A stretch of 64,000 bases of DNA from Pandoraea norimbergensis (GTDB taxonomy: Bacteria; Pseudomonadota; Gammaproteobacteria; Burkholderiales; Burkholderiaceae), in NCBI RefSeq assembly GCF_001465545.3, contig NZ_CP013480.3:5332001-5396000 (forward strand), given 5' to 3'. Below the pieces are notes generated by a model. That model was not told where the DNA came from. It worked only from the letters and a program-made list of their open reading frames with translations, and searched no databases. How positions within the stretch are numbered: position 1 is the first letter of the stretch; every line of letters starts with the position of its first letter. A program made the position numbers and the translations under genes. This document shows positions 567-6,114 of the stretch, one piece after another.

Positions 567-1373
567 ATGGTGCAAGTGCCCCGGCGTCCTGTAATCAGCG
601 CCCCGACACTCATACGCTCGCTGGCCCGTCTGAGCACGTTCACGCCGCCTGAGGCCGCGCCGTCGCTCTCGGACCGCATGAGTGAGTGGCTGGGCTGGAC
701 CGACGCCATCGCCCTGTCGTCGGCTCTCAAAGCCTCCTCGCCGGCCGAAACGCCCGGCGGGCGTACGGCCGCCCCGGCTTCGGCCAGCGGCAGCCGGGAG
801 TTGACACGCGTACGCACGGACCTCGCCGCCGCCATCGCCCGCGATTGCGGTCTGGCCACCGCCCCCGGCGGGCAAATTCGGGCAATGAGCGCCGCCGAGC
901 GTCAGCGGGCCGCCTCGTTTGCCGAGTTTCCCGCTTATCGGCAGCGCTACGCCACGTCGCAACAGACCATGGACACGGCCATCGGCGCGCTGCGCACCCG
1001 CATGCGCGCACAACTGGCGTTGATGTCGCCAGACGCCGCCCGTCTGGCCAGTGTCGATGCCGTCATGGAGCGCGTGCTGGGCGCCCGCGAGCGCACCTTG
1101 CTCGCCAGTGTGCCGAACCTGCTCGAAGGCCATTTCGTGAAGTTGCGCGATACCGAACAGGCCGCGTTGGCCGCACCGCGCGTGTCCGGTGCCCCGCCGC
1201 TCGCCCCGGCAGGCACGTGGCTCGACACTTTCCACCGGGACATGCAGAGCATCCTGCTCGCAGAACTCGATATCCGCCTTCAACCGCTTGAAGGGCTGCT
1301 CGCCGCCCAGCTCGCGATTGAACCCGGCGAAAACGTTAGTGAACCCGGACAACATGAATCGTTACCTCGTTGA
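567..1373 (+). CDS. DUF3348 family protein, first gene of motor-like operon
   Basis: A 268-residue soluble protein without signal peptide or membrane segment, matching the DUF3348 family by its motif pattern (early PTLIRSLARL segment, then the YRQRYATSQQTMDTAI region near residue 130, predicted mostly helical). The biochemical role is unknown. Residues 57-75 are Ala/Pro/Gly-rich and probably a linker. The next gene (DUF802) starts inside its last codons (20 bp overlap), and two further genes also overlap, so all four are likely co-translated. Start: ATG at 567, with only a weak purine stretch upstream; a GTG immediately follows, so the exact start is uncertain by a few codons. The operon setting beside an ExbB/MotA-like protein suggests a cytoplasmic accessory of that membrane complex (inference). 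Confidence 0.75.
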   Translation: MVQVPRRPVISAPTLIRSLARLSTFTPPEAAPSLSDRMSEWLGWTDAIALSSALKASSPAETPGGRTAAPASASGSRELTRVRTDLAAAIARDCGLATAPGGQIRAMSAAERQRAASFAEFPAYRQRYATSQQTMDTAIGALRTRMRAQLALMSPDAARLASVDAVMERVLGARERTLLASVPNLLEGHFVKLRDTEQAALAAPRVSGAPPLAPAGTWLDTFHRDMQSILLAELDIRLQPLEGLLAAQLAIEPGENVSEPGQHESLPR

Positions 1374-4300
1374 TCTCGTCGCCTTTGTCGCCGGACTGGC
1401 CGTTGTCGGCTGGATCGCCATCGGCTATGCCGGCACCAACACCCTCGCGCTGGCCGTCACACTGGTCATCGCCGCCGTCTATCTGTTCGGTGCGCTTGAA
1501 CTCAAACGCTTTCATCAGTCTTCCAACGCGCTCGCGAAGGCGGTTGGCGAACTGAATACGCCCCCGGCGTCACTGCCGTCATGGCTCGACACGCTGCCCG
1601 CCGGCCTGCGCACCGCCGTGCGCCTGCGCGTGGAAGGCGAGCGCGTCGGCCTGCCCGGCCCGGCACTCACGCCCTATCTCGTCGGCTTGCTCGTGCTGCT
1701 CGGCATGCTCGGCACGTTCCTCGGCATGGCGGCAACGCTGCGCGGCACCGGTATCGCCCTCGAAGGCGCGACCGACCTGCAAGCCATTCGTGCGTCGCTC
1801 GCCTCGCCGGTCAAGGGCCTCGGCTTTGCCTTCGGCACCTCGGTCGCCGGTGTCGCGACGTCGGCCATGCTCGGCCTGCTCGCCGCACTCGCCCGCAAAC
1901 AGCGCGCGCAAGTGGTGCAGTCGCTCGACGCGCGCATTGTCACCACGCTGCGCGGCTTCTCGCAGCAACATCAGCGCGAAACCACACTGCAACTGCTTCA
2001 GCAGCAAGCCGCTGTAATGCCCGCGCTGGTCGACCGTCTGCAAGACATGATGGCGGCCATGGAGCGCCAGAGTCAGGGCCTCGGCGAACGCCTCGTGGCG
2101 AATCAGGATGCCTTGCACGCGCGCACGGATGCCTCGTATGCGCAGCTCACAAACGCGATGCAGCAGTATCTGAAAGACAGCGTGACGACCACGGCCAGCG
2201 CCGCCGGTGCCGCCATTCGCCCCGAAGTCGAAGCGACGATGGCCAGTCTGGCGCGCGAGACCGCGTCGTGGCACCAGACGGTGTCGTCCGCCATGCAAGA
2301 CCGCATGGACGGTCTTTCCGAGCGCTTCGAAGCAACGACCTCGCGCGTGGCGAATGTCTGGAAGGATTCGCTGGACGCGCAGTTGCGCACCAACGAGTCG
2401 CTCGCGATCGATCTGCGCGGTGCACTCGGTGAGTTCGCGCAGACGTTCGAGACACGCTCGGCGCGCCTCGTCGACGACGTTGCCACCCGGCTCGAAAGCG
2501 CGACCGGTCAGGTGAGCACGGCACACGCCGGTGTGGCGCAAACGTGGGAAGCCTCGCTCGCCGCACAGCAACGCACCAGCGATGCGCTCGCGAAGGAACT
2601 CGGCGCGACGCTCACGCAGTTCGCACAAACGTTCGAAACGCGCTCTGCGGGGCTGCTGGCCGATGTGACCACGCGCCTCGATAACGCCACTGGCAGCATC
2701 GCCACTGCGCAGACGACTGTCGCGCAGGCTTGGGAACAAGCGCTTGCGCAGCAGCAAAGCTCGCACAACGCGTTGACGCAGGATCTCGGCACGGCGCTGG
2801 AACGATTCGCACAAACCTTTGAAGCGCGTTCGAGCGCGTTGCTCGGCGACGTGGCGGCCAAGCTCGACGCGACGAGTGGCAACGTGACCGGCGCGCACGA
2901 GCGTGTGGCGCAGGTGTGGGATCAGGCACTGACGCAACAACGTCTGTCGCACGACACGATGACGCAGGAACTCGGTGCCGCGTTGGAGCGCTTCGCGCAG
3001 ACGTTCGACGCACGCTCGAATGCGCTGATCAGCGACGTGGCCGTGAAGCTCGATACGACCAGCGGCAATGTGTCCGGTGCGCACGAGCGTGTGGCGCAAG
3101 TGTGGGATCAGGCATTGACACAACAACGTCTCTCGCACGACACGATGACGCAGGCGCTCGGTGCCGCGCTGGAACGCTTCGCTCAGACGTTCGACGCGCG
3201 TTCGAATGCGTTGATCAGCGACGTGGCCGCAAAGTTCGACACGACAAGCGGTAACGTGTCTGGCGCTCACGAGCGTGTTGCGCAAGTGTGGAACGAATCG
3301 CTGGCGCTGCAAAAGGCCGCCAACGCGTCGCTGGCTGCCGATCTCGGCGCCGCATTGAGCCGCTTCACGGAAACATTCGAGCAACGCTCGGCGCATCTGG
3401 TGGACGGTGTGAGCACGCGCACGGAAGGCGCAATGCAAAGCGTTGCCGACACGGCGGCGGTGGTTTCCGGCGAGTGGAAGCAGGCCATCACTGCGCAGCA
3501 ACAGGCCAACGACTCGCTCACGAAAGACCTCGCCGCCGCACTCGCGCGCTTTGCCGACACCTTCGACACGCGCTCGACGCAACTGCTGCAAGGTGTCTCG
3601 ACGCAGATGGACGCCGCGTCGGCCAACGTCGCACACGCCTGGCGCGAAGCCATCGCCGAACACGCTCGCGTGAGCGAACAACTGGCAGGCGGCAACCAGC
3701 AACTCGTTGCCGCGACGACGACGGCCTTCACCGAACACAGCGCGTCGCTGCTCGATGCTCTGAACGCCGCCAACGCCGCGCATCACGACGCCACCGCCGA
3801 GCGCGAGACGCAACGCTTGTCGGCATGGACCGAAACGCTCGAAGGCACGCTCGCGACACTGCGCGAACAATGGCAGCAGATGGGCGCACAAACGGCCGAT
3901 CAGCAACAGACCATCTGCGAGACGCTCAGCCGCACCGCGCTCGAAATGTCGGAACAATCGCGCAACAACGCGAGCGACACCATCGCCGAGATTTCGCGCC
4001 TGATGCAGACCGCCGCCGAAGCGCCGAAGGCTGCCGCCGAAATCATCGCCGAACTGCGCCAGAAGCTCTCGGACAGCATGGTGCGCGACAACGCCATGCT
4101 GGAAGAACGCTCGCGTCTGCTCGACACACTCGGCACGCTGCTCGACACGGTCCGCCATGCGGGCAACGAACAACGCGCGGCGGTCGACGATCTCGTCACC
4201 ACGTCGGCGCAGTTGCTCGAACGTGCCAGCGCAAATCTGGGCGACACCATCGCCGCCCAGACCGAGAAACTGGCCGCCGCATCGGCGCAGGTCACCGGCA

Positions 4301-4566
4301 GCGCCGTGGAAGTGGCGAGCCTTGGCGACACGTTCGGCGCTGCCGTGCAGGCCTTCGGCGAATCGAACACGCAACTGCTCGACCATCTGCAACGCATTGA
4401 GGCGGCACTCGACAAGTCGATGGCCCGCAGCGACGAACAACTCGGCTACTACGTCGCGCAAGCGCGCGAAGTGGTGGAGCTGAGCGTGATGTCGCAAAAG
4501 CAGATTCTCGAAAACCTGCAACAGCTCGGCGCTGCCCGCGCACAACCGGGTAGCGCGGCAGCATGA
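1354..4566 (+). CDS. DUF802 repeat protein with MotA/TolQ/ExbB-like membrane domain (ZorA-like)
   Basis: A 1070-residue protein. The start is set at the ATG at 1354, where a hydrophobic N-terminus begins; a longer frame upstream would simply shadow DUF3348. Two membrane segments lie at about residues 5-26 and 29-47, and two more at about 107-127 and 154-180. Segment 3 reads LLGMLGTFLGMAATL and segment 4 has GLGFAFGTSVAG, closely resembling the paired pore helices of ExbB/TolQ/MotA/ZorA proton-channel subunits. After residue 190 the protein is almost wholly helical, with seven 62-residue repeats (about residues 332-765) and further Ala/Gln/Glu-rich helix to the end. A MotA-type pore with a very long cytoplasmic tail is the architecture of ZorA from Zorya defence systems. 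The stop overlaps the next start (ATGA), pairing it with the MotB-like gene. The Pfam name DUF802 covers the repeats; the motor reading is my inference. Confidence 0.8.
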   Translation: MNRYLVDLVAFVAGLAVVGWIAIGYAGTNTLALAVTLVIAAVYLFGALELKRFHQSSNALAKAVGELNTPPASLPSWLDTLPAGLRTAVRLRVEGERVGLPGPALTPYLVGLLVLLGMLGTFLGMAATLRGTGIALEGATDLQAIRASLASPVKGLGFAFGTSVAGVATSAMLGLLAALARKQRAQVVQSLDARIVTTLRGFSQQHQRETTLQLLQQQAAVMPALVDRLQDMMAAMERQSQGLGERLVANQDALHARTDASYAQLTNAMQQYLKDSVTTTASAAGAAIRPEVEATMASLARETASWHQTVSSAMQDRMDGLSERFEATTSRVANVWKDSLDAQLRTNESLAIDLRGALGEFAQTFETRSARLVDDVATRLESATGQVSTAHAGVAQTWEASLAAQQRTSDALAKELGATLTQFAQTFETRSAGLLADVTTRLDNATGSIATAQTTVAQAWEQALAQQQSSHNALTQDLGTALERFAQTFEARSSALLGDVAAKLDATSGNVTGAHERVAQVWDQALTQQRLSHDTMTQELGAALERFAQTFDARSNALISDVAVKLDTTSGNVSGAHERVAQVWDQALTQQRLSHDTMTQALGAALERFAQTFDARSNALISDVAAKFDTTSGNVSGAHERVAQVWNESLALQKAANASLAADLGAALSRFTETFEQRSAHLVDGVSTRTEGAMQSVADTAAVVSGEWKQAITAQQQANDSLTKDLAAALARFADTFDTRSTQLLQGVSTQMDAASANVAHAWREAIAEHARVSEQLAGGNQQLVAATTTAFTEHSASLLDALNAANAAHHDATAERETQRLSAWTETLEGTLATLREQWQQMGAQTADQQQTICETLSRTALEMSEQSRNNASDTIAEISRLMQTAAEAPKAAAEIIAELRQKLSDSMVRDNAMLEERSRLLDTLGTLLDTVRHAGNEQRAAVDDLVTTSAQLLERASANLGDTIAAQTEKLAAASAQVTGSAVEVASLGDTFGAAVQAFGESNTQLLDHLQRIEAALDKSMARSDEQLGYYVAQAREVVELSVMSQKQILENLQQLGAARAQPGSAAA
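2347..3648 (+). repeat. Seven in-frame 186-bp (62-residue) tandem repeats in DUF802 gene
   Basis: Units begin at 2347, 2533, 2719, 2905, 3091, 3277 and 3463, each opening with a codon for Val (VAxxW in most units) and containing FAQTF.(A/T)RS near the middle. The spacing is exactly 186 bp. Units starting at 2905 and 3091 are nearly identical in DNA, while outer units have diverged, so the array probably grew by recent duplication of central units. Confidence 0.9.
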
Positions 4567-5255
4567 GCCACGACTTCGACTCCGAGATGGCCGACGGCGA
4601 CGTTGGCGCCGCCGCACCGGCGTGGGCCGTGTTCGGCGATCTGATGTCGGTGATGCTCGGCGCGTTCGTGCTGATCATGCTCGGTGTGATCGGCGTGCAG
4701 CTCGAACTGTCGGCCAAGCTGGAGCGAGAGGTGAAGGAGCGTCAGGCCGAAACGCAACGCCGCGAGACGCTGGAGAAAGCGCTCGCCGGGCCGCTGGCAG
4801 GTGGACGCGTCACGATCGTGAACGGCCGCATCGGTATCAGCGGCAACGTGCTCTTCGCGCTGAATTCGGATCAGTTGCAGCCGCAGGGCCGCGAAGTGCT
4901 GCGCAGTCTCGCCGCGCCGCTCGCCGCCTACCTGAAGGTGAGCGACGAGATTCTGATGGTCAGCGGCTTCACCGACGACCAGCAAGTGCGTGAGACGAAC
5001 CGGCGCTTTGCCGATAACTGGGAGTTGTCCGCGCAACGGGCACTCACCGTCACGCGCGAATTGATCGCGGCAGGTATTCCCCCGTCGTCGGTGTTCTCGG
5101 CCGCGTTCGGGGCAGAGCAGCCCGTGACGTCGAATGGCGACGAGGCTGGCCGCGCCAAGAACCGCCGTGTGGAAATTGCACCGATGCCGCGCAGTAGTGC
5201 GGGGAATGCGGGGAATGCGAGCAATGCCAGCAAGGCCGGGAAGACAAATGGCTGA
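4563..5255 (+). CDS. OmpA/MotB-like stator protein (ZorB-like)
   Basis: A 230-residue inner-membrane protein with a short cytoplasmic N-terminus, one transmembrane helix (about residues 21-44) and a periplasmic OmpA-type peptidoglycan-binding domain (about 80-210, including NRRFADNWELSAQRA and the C-terminal AKNRRVEI motif). The helix begins WAVFGDLMSVMLGAF. Asp26 occupies the place of the ion-carrying Asp in MotB, ExbD, TolR and ZorB, with the flanking pattern W-x-x-F/Y-x-D-[LF]-M. ATGA overlap with the DUF802 gene indicates coupled translation, as expected for subunits of one complex. The C-terminal tail is a low-complexity Ser/Ala/Asn/Gly run encoded by short repeats at 5198-5233. Role: probable peptidoglycan-anchored stator coupling ion flow to movement of the DUF802 subunit (inference from family logic). 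Confidence 0.85.
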   Translation: MSHDFDSEMADGDVGAAAPAWAVFGDLMSVMLGAFVLIMLGVIGVQLELSAKLEREVKERQAETQRRETLEKALAGPLAGGRVTIVNGRIGISGNVLFALNSDQLQPQGREVLRSLAAPLAAYLKVSDEILMVSGFTDDQQVRETNRRFADNWELSAQRALTVTRELIAAGIPPSSVFSAAFGAEQPVTSNGDEAGRAKNRRVEIAPMPRSSAGNAGNASNASKAGKTNG

Positions 5256-6114
5256 CGCTGATACCGCCGATTCGGCGGGCACCGCCGACACCGCCGATCA
5301 ATCGGTCTGGCAGACGCAGCTCGACCTCTGGCGGGCGCAACAAGCCGACAAACGCGACCCAGTTCGCTTTCACCTCATTGAAGCGCTGGCGCGGCGATCA
5401 GCGACCTATACGGGCGAAGCAAGGCGCGTGCTGGACGCGCGCCTGCAAACGCTCGTCGACGCGTTCTCGAAGGCGTTGACGGGCGGTGCAGCACCGGACG
5501 CCGAAGGCAGCGCTGCCACGGTGCCGGAAGGCGGGGTTGCTGCCGCATCGTCTTCTCTGTCGCCCCCGTCGCCCCCGTCGCCATTGTCGCCATTGTCGCC
5601 ATTGTCTGCCCTGATCGCCGACATGACGCAACGCGTCGGCGAGCGGCCCGCACGGTCGGTAGCGTCCAGCAAGCGCCCCGCGAACACGACACCCGCTGCG
5701 CGTCCGGCTAGTCCCGCTTCCTTCGTCGCGCCGTCCGCCACGGCTCCCGCTCCCGCCACGCTCCCGGCCGCTCCGCCTGCCCCGCCGAGCGTCATCGCGA
5801 CGGACGACAGCTTTGAAGACATGGACGTGCTGGAGTATTTCCGCGAGACGTGGTCGAAGCTCAGCACCGACGGCAATCTGCGACAGTCGCTGGCGCAGGT
5901 GCCGGAGAATGCCGGGCCGCTGAATTCCAGCCATCTCGTGCATCGCGCGCTCTCGCTCATGCATGACGTGTCGCCCGACTATCTGCGCCACTTTCTGCGC
6001 CATGCCGACGCCCTCTCGTGGCTCGAAGACATGGACAGCGCCGGCGCAATGCGCAACAAGAGCGCGGCGCGTGTCGCAGCGTCGGCCAAGCCCTCACGGG
6101 CGAAGGCGCGTTGA
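5248..6114 (+). CDS. DUF2894 family protein, last gene of motor-like operon
   Basis: A 288-residue soluble protein; the ATG at 5248 overlaps the OmpA-like stop by 8 bp. The N-terminal part (residues 17-75, with WQTQLDLWRAQQADKRDP) and the C-terminal part (about 190-275, VLEYFRETWSKLSTDGNLR and the HALS..HDVSPDYLRHF region) match the DUF2894 family. Between them lies a Ser/Pro and then Ala/Pro-rich linker encoded partly by 9-bp tandem repeats. The C-terminus is basic. No catalytic motif is visible. DUF2894 with DUF3348 and DUF802 forms a recurring neighbourhood in Burkholderiaceae (family knowledge), so it is probably a dedicated component or effector of the complex, but its activity is unknown. 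Confidence 0.75.
   Translation: MADADTADSAGTADTADQSVWQTQLDLWRAQQADKRDPVRFHLIEALARRSATYTGEARRVLDARLQTLVDAFSKALTGGAAPDAEGSAATVPEGGVAAASSSLSPPSPPSPLSPLSPLSALIADMTQRVGERPARSVASSKRPANTTPAARPASPASFVAPSATAPAPATLPAAPPAPPSVIATDDSFEDMDVLEYFRETWSKLSTDGNLRQSLAQVPENAGPLNSSHLVHRALSLMHDVSPDYLRHFLRHADALSWLEDMDSAGAMRNKSAARVAASAKPSRAKAR
5560..5604 (+). repeat. Five 9-bp tandem units in DUF2894 linker
   Basis: Two units of TCGCCCCCG are followed by three of TCGCCATTG. They encode Ser-Pro-Pro and Ser-Pro-Leu triplets in the linker. The 9-bp period keeps the frame, so copy-number change would only alter linker length. Confidence 0.85.

Follow-up and report, generated by a model that had tools for sequence, protein, structure and literature searches.

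Which kind of motor is encoded by a cluster of four overlapping genes in Pandoraea norimbergensis, and what acts together with it? The cluster lies in a stretch of 64,000 nucleotides (contig NZ_CP013480.3, positions 5,332,001 to 5,396,000 of the forward strand), which we refer to as the window; coordinates are those of the window unless another contig is named. A first-pass annotation had proposed a possible Zorya-like or novel rotary motor in which DUF3348 and DUF2894 proteins replace the Zorya effectors. We found that all four genes match the PADLOC models for Zorya type III with E-values of 1.7e-84 or better. Judged by these matches to ZorG3, ZorA3, ZorB3 and ZorF3 the operon is of Zorya type III and complete. 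Taking all lines of evidence together, we think it likely that the operon encodes a tethered motor with a rod leading to a conserved tip, that the DUF3348 and DUF2894 proteins act at this tip without an encoded nuclease, and that the operon is part of the core genome in the Burkholderiaceae. The four genes are (aa, amino acids):

567–1373, + strand: DUF3348 gene, 268 aa (Pfam DUF3348 1.4e-77; PADLOC ZorG3 1.7e-84)
1354–4566, + strand: zorA3, 1070 aa, with a membrane motor part (aa 1–190) and an 880-residue cytoplasmic rod (PADLOC ZorA3 E=0, 1440.9 bits)
4563–5255, + strand: zorB3, 230 aa, with one membrane helix and an OmpA/MotB peptidoglycan-binding domain (PADLOC ZorB3 5e-112)
5248–6114, + strand: DUF2894 gene, 288 aa (Pfam DUF2894 9e-53; PADLOC ZorF3 4.9e-88)

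Coordinates and Pfam matches agree with the gene order that had been described (DUF3348–DUF802–OmpA/MotB–DUF2894), each gene overlapping the next. The genes zorA3 and zorB3 are adjacent, their reading frames share 4 bases, and the pair is flanked by the DUF3348 and DUF2894 genes. This is the arrangement of type III, which was named in 2021 by Payne et al. and is defined there by ZorA and ZorB together with DUF3348 and DUF2894 proteins (PMC8565338). According to the same source there are 6,401 type III loci, the central pair being printed as ‘zorBC’ in that text, and when the type III system of Stenotrophomonas nitritireducens was cloned into E. coli, one or more of the phages tested plated less well (PMC8565338). 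Such systems were known before, type III having been named and tested in 2021, and only the suggestion of a novel system had to be given up. With type III the Pandoraea locus has all four genes and every profile match in common, and we saw nothing that would set it apart as another type. We rejected Zorya type I or II, as the operon contains neither ZorC and ZorD nor ZorE and only DUF3348 and DUF2894 are found beside ZorAB. A search of the genome with one ZorC model gave zero matches, as did the controls of that search. The two helper proteins carry opposite labels in different sources: DUF3348 is ZorF and DUF2894 is ZorG in PMC8565338, but they are ZorG3 and ZorF3, respectively, in PADLOC-DB 2.0.0. 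The Zorya III labels may have been swapped between these sources, and we therefore use the DUF names.

The linkage of the four genes is far beyond chance. They were complete in 76 of 80 named loci, with identical order and strand in all 76; the incomplete loci (L096, L128, L130, L141) are contigs ending within the operon. The same genes in the same order were also present in 19/19 loci of other families, where DUF3348 identity falls to 26%. Of these 19 loci 12 come from the 24 order-level matches outside the family; the other 7 are all of the class-level matches not already in the set.

ZorA was taken from the ATG at 1354 (1070 aa), the mechanical open reading frame call beginning at 1189. In a hydropathy scan with overlapping windows grouped, four segments were located at about residues 5–23, 30–48, 109–127 and 162–180. 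Hydropathy and sequence thus agree with the four membrane segments and the GTFLGM and GFAFGTS patterns of the first-pass annotation, and the 880-aa tail behind them (191–1070) corresponds to its approximately 880 residues of cytoplasmic helix. Conservation was assessed in the window and 77 named loci, giving 78 ZorA and 77 ZorB sequences (one ZorB, truncated at the end of its contig, was omitted). The following positions were invariant:

1714–1716, + strand: T121 of ZorA (GTFLGM), pore-helix threonine, in 78/78 sequences
1837–1842, + strand: T162-S163 of ZorA (FGTSVAG; GFAFGTS), pore-helix polar pair, in 78/78 sequences
4638–4640, + strand: D26 of ZorB, position of the ion-carrying aspartate, in 77/77 sequences

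The aspartate of the W..F.DLM motif was also present in all 19 loci of other families, as read by eye from printed sequences (for L187 the column given by the script was misaligned). A single hydrophobic segment (27–45) was located in ZorB, which matches Pfam OmpA with 1.8e-17 (63.9 bits, cut-off 27.2); the best of its matches to solved MotB proteins is 3khn (2.5e-16). The predicted partner subunit therefore looks as it had been described, with one helix, Asp26 in the MotB/ZorB position and an OmpA-type domain that would bind peptidoglycan. For types I and II a ZorA5:ZorB2 assembly is known in which the equivalent Asp packs against a ring of serine and threonine residues, and defence requires this Asp, peptidoglycan binding and the rod (PMC11890865). 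Among the matches listed for ZorB (25 of 41 families) the only NCBIfam model over its cut-off was PRK09040, a ‘hypothetical protein’ (372 bits, cut-off 194), so that public annotation may not show 4563–5255 as ZorB.

When comparing ZorA residues 1–249 with solved structures we obtained a single match up to E 10, the type I ZorA 8VVN (8.5e-5). A profile built from 29 ZorA relatives also placed 8VVN first (4.1e-5), and the remaining matches up to E 1 were weak, unrelated channels (0.44 or worse). The NCBIfam model ZorA_2 was matched with 1.2e-10 and 41 bits, under its cut-off of 100. At E 1 or better ZorA matched neither Pfam MotA_ExbB nor, with its sequence profile, any solved MotA, ExbB or TolQ; its link to MotA/ExbB therefore runs through ZorA. 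Of the kinship proposed earlier with ZorA, MotA and ExbB, the part concerning ZorA holds for the ZorA-specific profiles and 8VVN, while a Pfam MotA_ExbB match is missing at E 1. A complete lack of profile relatives, which would have spoken against a motor, was not what we found. Compared with Zorya types I and II, the motor core with its critical Asp, the OmpA-like domain and the cytoplasmic rod are common, in line with the ZorA_2 and 8VVN matches, but the type III operon is without ZorC, ZorD or ZorE. With MotAB, ExbBD and TolQR the pair shares the pore-helix pattern as read from the sequence, the one-helix B subunit with Asp and the OmpA-type domain. It differs from them in having no Pfam MotA_ExbB match, no solved-structure profile match and no linkage to flagellar, Ton or TolQRA genes, none of which were seen among 16 neighbours. 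A flagellar MotAB stator was also rejected because the MotB-type models among the listed matches of ZorB all stayed under their cut-offs and flagellar genes were missing from these neighbours.

The rod comprises ZorA residues 191–1070 (880 aa), contains 4 prolines and has a net charge of -40. Pfam DUF802 matches ZorA with 2.2e-91 in 8 stretches. Three features were located in it:

2314–3753, + strand: eight DUF802 repeats (8 matches over cut-off, converted from genome coordinates)
2760–3291, + strand: tandem array of the rod unit, 186 bp = 62 aa, 2.9 copies (Tandem Repeats Finder score 742; protein self-similarity peak at 62 aa)
3874–4563, + strand: conserved membrane-distal ZorA tip, last 230 aa (61 invariant columns in 29 chosen sequences)

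The array at 2760–3291 is the only tandem array with a score of at least 80 within the window. Median identity to the window ZorA is 68% for the first 250 aa and 65% for the last 260 aa. Across the 77 named loci ZorA length ranges from 696 to 1229 aa, and despite the repeats the frame is open through to ZorB in all 77. In 18 reciprocal nearest pairs ZorA length was equal in 7 and different in 11. The difference was 87 aa in six of the unequal pairs and 261 (= 3 x 87), 166, 80, 29 and 22 aa in one each. Rod length varies mostly by whole repeat units.

Clear internal repeats (self-identity of at least 0.27) were found in 43 of 78 rods. They fall into nine lengths: 22, 29, 33, 51, 62, 80, 87, 131 and 149 residues. 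At 3.63 residues per turn each of the nine is no more than 0.1 turn away from a whole number of turns. Of 5000 random sets with nine lengths each, none gave as good a fit. The hydrophobic period of the rod, measured separately in 6 of the 78 rods, is 3.645–3.66. Rods of other families, which were outside the fit, add the lengths 95, 69, 73 and 55. Their deviations are 0.06, -0.07, 0.03 and 0.09 turn at 3.645 and 0.17, 0.01, 0.11 and 0.15 turn at 3.63, respectively; lengths 73 and 55 rest on weaker self-identity (0.25 and 0.26), peaks weaker than these being excluded. The rod thus appears to be free in length while its helical phase is kept and both ends are conserved. This conservation of both ZorA ends marks the far end as a putative docking place. 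Some observations weigh against such a shaft. The differences of 166, 29 and 22 aa are not multiples of the main repeat of their own pair, and the hydrophobic period lies outside 3.64–3.68 in 4 of 12 rods from the order-level matches and in 2 of 7 from the class-level matches. Phase-keeping is expected of any continuous coiled coil; the repeats therefore speak for a near-hendecad rod without interruptions but not for rotation itself.

Compared with its type III relatives the window ZorA is long: four copies fetched from families f58 and f196 measure 698–754 aa and are without a strong repeat (self-identity at most 0.23). Likewise, the rod of about 880 aa compares with about 460 (236–696) and 279 (100–378) residues in two solved type I/II complexes (PMC11890865). 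Component sizes are described as well conserved within each family in that source, but here ZorA spans 696–1229 aa. A 62-aa repeat period as in Pandoraea was also seen in the ZorA of a locus from another family (L179, family f4), which leaves shared array ancestry, transfer or convergence.

What would act at the far end of the rod? By Pfam none of the four operon proteins contains a nuclease, helicase or other enzyme domain. Hydropathy gave no membrane segment in DUF3348 or DUF2894, and for both proteins we obtained no confident fold or solved-structure match and recognised no DNA-binding fold. The AlphaFold2 model of DUF3348 consists of helices only, with a mean predicted local distance difference test score (pLDDT) of 79.9. 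DUF2894 was modelled as two helical parts and a loose Ser/Pro-rich linker (mean pLDDT 64.9); within aa 21–80 every block reaches at least 87. Its length varies between 188 and 325 aa among relatives, and 9-bp tandem repeats are located at 5568–5611, inside the linker. Going by these domain searches and models, type III is probably without an encoded nuclease, unlike types I and II. One further feature is located at the end of the operon:

6052–6111, + strand: basic C-terminal tail formed by the last 20 aa of DUF2894 (net charge of at least +4 in 76/77 sequences)

We propose the following mechanism, whose first steps are transferred from types I and II on the basis of their structures and mutants. 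At a ratio of 5:2, ZorA and ZorB would assemble into a peptidoglycan-tethered, ion-driven motor. Disturbance of the envelope by a phage, sensed through the peptidoglycan, would open the motor to ions, and ion flow would turn or strain the ZorA rod. In our own extension of this scheme the rod would serve as a stiff shaft that carries the state of the motor to the conserved tip. The tip would then engage DUF3348 and DUF2894, and we infer that both have their role there, acting without an enzyme of their own. Because neither helper gene encodes a recognisable enzyme, we suggest that DUF3348 is a rod-docked adaptor and DUF2894 a binder that uses its basic tail. The binder would replace the encoded nuclease either by holding incoming DNA for host nucleases or by gating the ion leak of the motor itself, and the outcome may be DNA capture with a host nuclease, an ion leak or a general envelope response.

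The first of these outcomes corresponds to a borrowed nuclease: DUF2894 and DUF3348 would bring in a nuclease of the host or retain phage DNA via the basic tail. We regard this as quite possible, if short of an even chance. A net charge of at least +4 is found in only 1.4% of other 20-aa stretches compared with 76 of the 77 DUF2894 tails, and the tail reaches +5 to +8 in the four fetched f58 and f196 copies. Against it, the tail is weak (+1 to +3) in three copies from the most distant families f161 and f117, no DNA-binding fold was recognised and no fifth gene was seen linked across genera. Moreover, the tail could equally bind the acidic ZorA rod or membrane lipids. Alternatively ZorAB itself could be the effector, the triggered motor leaking ions and depolarising the infected cell with DUF3348 and DUF2894 as mere gates. 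The lack of an enzyme domain in the operon, with none suggested by the helical models, is consistent with this, and the authors of 2021 proposed that the two proteins regulate ZorAB (PMC8565338). We nevertheless consider it rather unlikely, as it leaves an 880-residue rod with a conserved tip without a role and as nuclease recruitment and DNA damage have been suggested for types I and II (PMC11890865).

How widely is the operon distributed? Named close homologues and the tree put the window in Pandoraea, with P. iniqua nearest. Within this genus 31 of 32 genomes contained DUF3348, and the one without it is a reduced genome of 1.2 Mb. In the family it was present in 279 of 398 genomes, where a control search for trmB matched 391. 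Most of the 119 absences are genomes smaller than 3 Mb. Among family genomes of at least 5 Mb and at least 90% completeness 262 of 279 contained DUF3348 and 17 did not (counted by hand from rows; per-genus sums, 279 in all, were checked). Further out it is patchy, with 31 of 399 order and 9 of 347 class genomes (own genome in both). We found no match in 50,697 phage records and none that was confirmed in any IMG/VR contig at the sensitivity used. Matches occurred in 27 of 72,556 plasmid records; the 20 among the matches listed all have at least 588,872 bases and are therefore chromids or megaplasmids. A mobile defence-island gene set was rejected on the grounds of its presence in the genus, the zero phage records and the large size of all plasmid matches listed.

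In the window the operon has trmB, uppP and ordinary genes as neighbours, with no convincing defence gene among the 16 scanned. In 13 of 14 named Pandoraea loci with enough downstream sequence trmB comes next (in one of the 13 it is cut by the contig end), the exception being P. terrae; in other genera the neighbours differ. Across these genomes the operon behaves as core genome in the Burkholderiaceae and does not appear island-borne. Both suggestions of the first-pass annotation on this point, conservation in the Burkholderiaceae and a housekeeping position outside a defence island, are borne out by this survey. For Ralstonia solanacearum, type III Zorya is counted among the core systems of the species in a paper of 2026 (PMC13064858), and core status is therefore already in print for one species. 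The literature searched, which leaves out most subscription papers, contained no family-wide count of type III. In PMC11890865 the three Zorya types are described as differentially distributed, as is typical of anti-phage systems; this does not hold for type III in the Burkholderiaceae.

We compared selection on the genes by the ratio of nonsynonymous to synonymous substitution rates (dN/dS), setting the window against each of four other Pandoraea species, with trmB represented by its aligned part. Values were 0.039–0.083 for ZorB, 0.052–0.069 for the ZorA motor part, 0.067–0.114 for the ZorA tip and 0.110–0.134 for trmB. DUF3348 gave 0.133–0.251 and DUF2894 0.212–0.382. The motor is constrained at least as strongly as trmB, and both helpers evolve faster.

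A near-universal, strongly constrained operon outside of islands is unusual for a defence system. It could instead be mainly a core envelope or cell-cycle motor in the Burkholderiaceae that passes peptidoglycan strain inward, phage protection being a side effect or secondary. The presence in nearly all genus and larger family genomes argues for this, as do the low dN/dS of ZorB and of the ZorA motor part relative to trmB, the ZorA frames that stay open despite repeats, the absence from phage records and confirmed IMG/VR contigs and the lack of convincing defence neighbours. We still regard it as doubtful: the cloned type III homologue cut phage plating in E. coli (PMC8565338), the operon is patchy outside the family, and the 17 large, complete family genomes without its marker DUF3348 imply that it is not essential. 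DUF3348 and DUF2894 also evolve faster, as could be expected of phage-facing parts. By analogy with the Stenotrophomonas nitritireducens homologue the Pandoraea locus would protect against phages. Data from B. cenocepacia K56-2 speak against this: knock-down of predicted defence genes including Zorya III left the fitness of the bacteria against phage Bcep176 unchanged, with the caveat that there were few guides for 3 of 34 defence genes (PMC12584637). Transcripts from the first one or two genes of the operon did change during Bcep176 infection of K56-2, according to the same source.

Some further observations concern single loci. In four Pandoraea loci (L098, L107, L108, L111) about 1.5–2 kb of extra DNA, absent from the window, lies between DUF2894 and trmB. 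The Pandoraea metagenome-assembled genome BA404 contains a second Zorya III copy (L128 7032–10373; L100) with a DUF3348 that is 52% identical; this is probably a foreign contig, because a contamination of 4% is given for the genome that matches it (G423). On an ‘Acidobacteriaceae’ metagenome contig (L141 4695–5423) DUF3348 is 50% identical to that of the window and the contig ends directly after it, which may reflect transfer or misbinning. About 8.7–11.7 kb upstream of the window (L176 323–3346) an autotransporter of 1007 aa is encoded that contains autochaperone and pertactin-type domains.

From the sequence itself we derive the type identity, an intact pore with D26, the OmpA-type domain, a rod with conserved phase and tip and the conserved four-gene linkage. 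Beyond the literature found go the status as family core, the fixed gene order, the phase-keeping variation of the rod and the all-helical helpers without a nuclease domain. Only tentatively, type III may be viewed as a nuclease-free Zorya branch that turned into a core peptidoglycan-coupled motor in the Burkholderiaceae. The length of its shaft would then be free in phase-keeping steps because only torque or strain at the tip matters, the outcome produced by DUF3348 and DUF2894 would differ from that in types I and II, and defence would possibly be one output of a general sensor of envelope strain.

The remaining interest of the system lies in its effector step, its core inheritance and its phase-keeping rod. 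Of all parts of Zorya the effector step of type III seems to have been studied least, as the literature found offers one cloned type III system and no mechanism. If type III indeed works without an encoded nuclease, comparison with types I and II would separate the contribution of the motor from that of the nuclease. The phase-keeping rod makes the need for length and the need for phase in signalling directly separable by experiment. Finally, a defence system that belongs to the core genome of an entire family would put to the test the common picture of defence systems as readily gained and lost.

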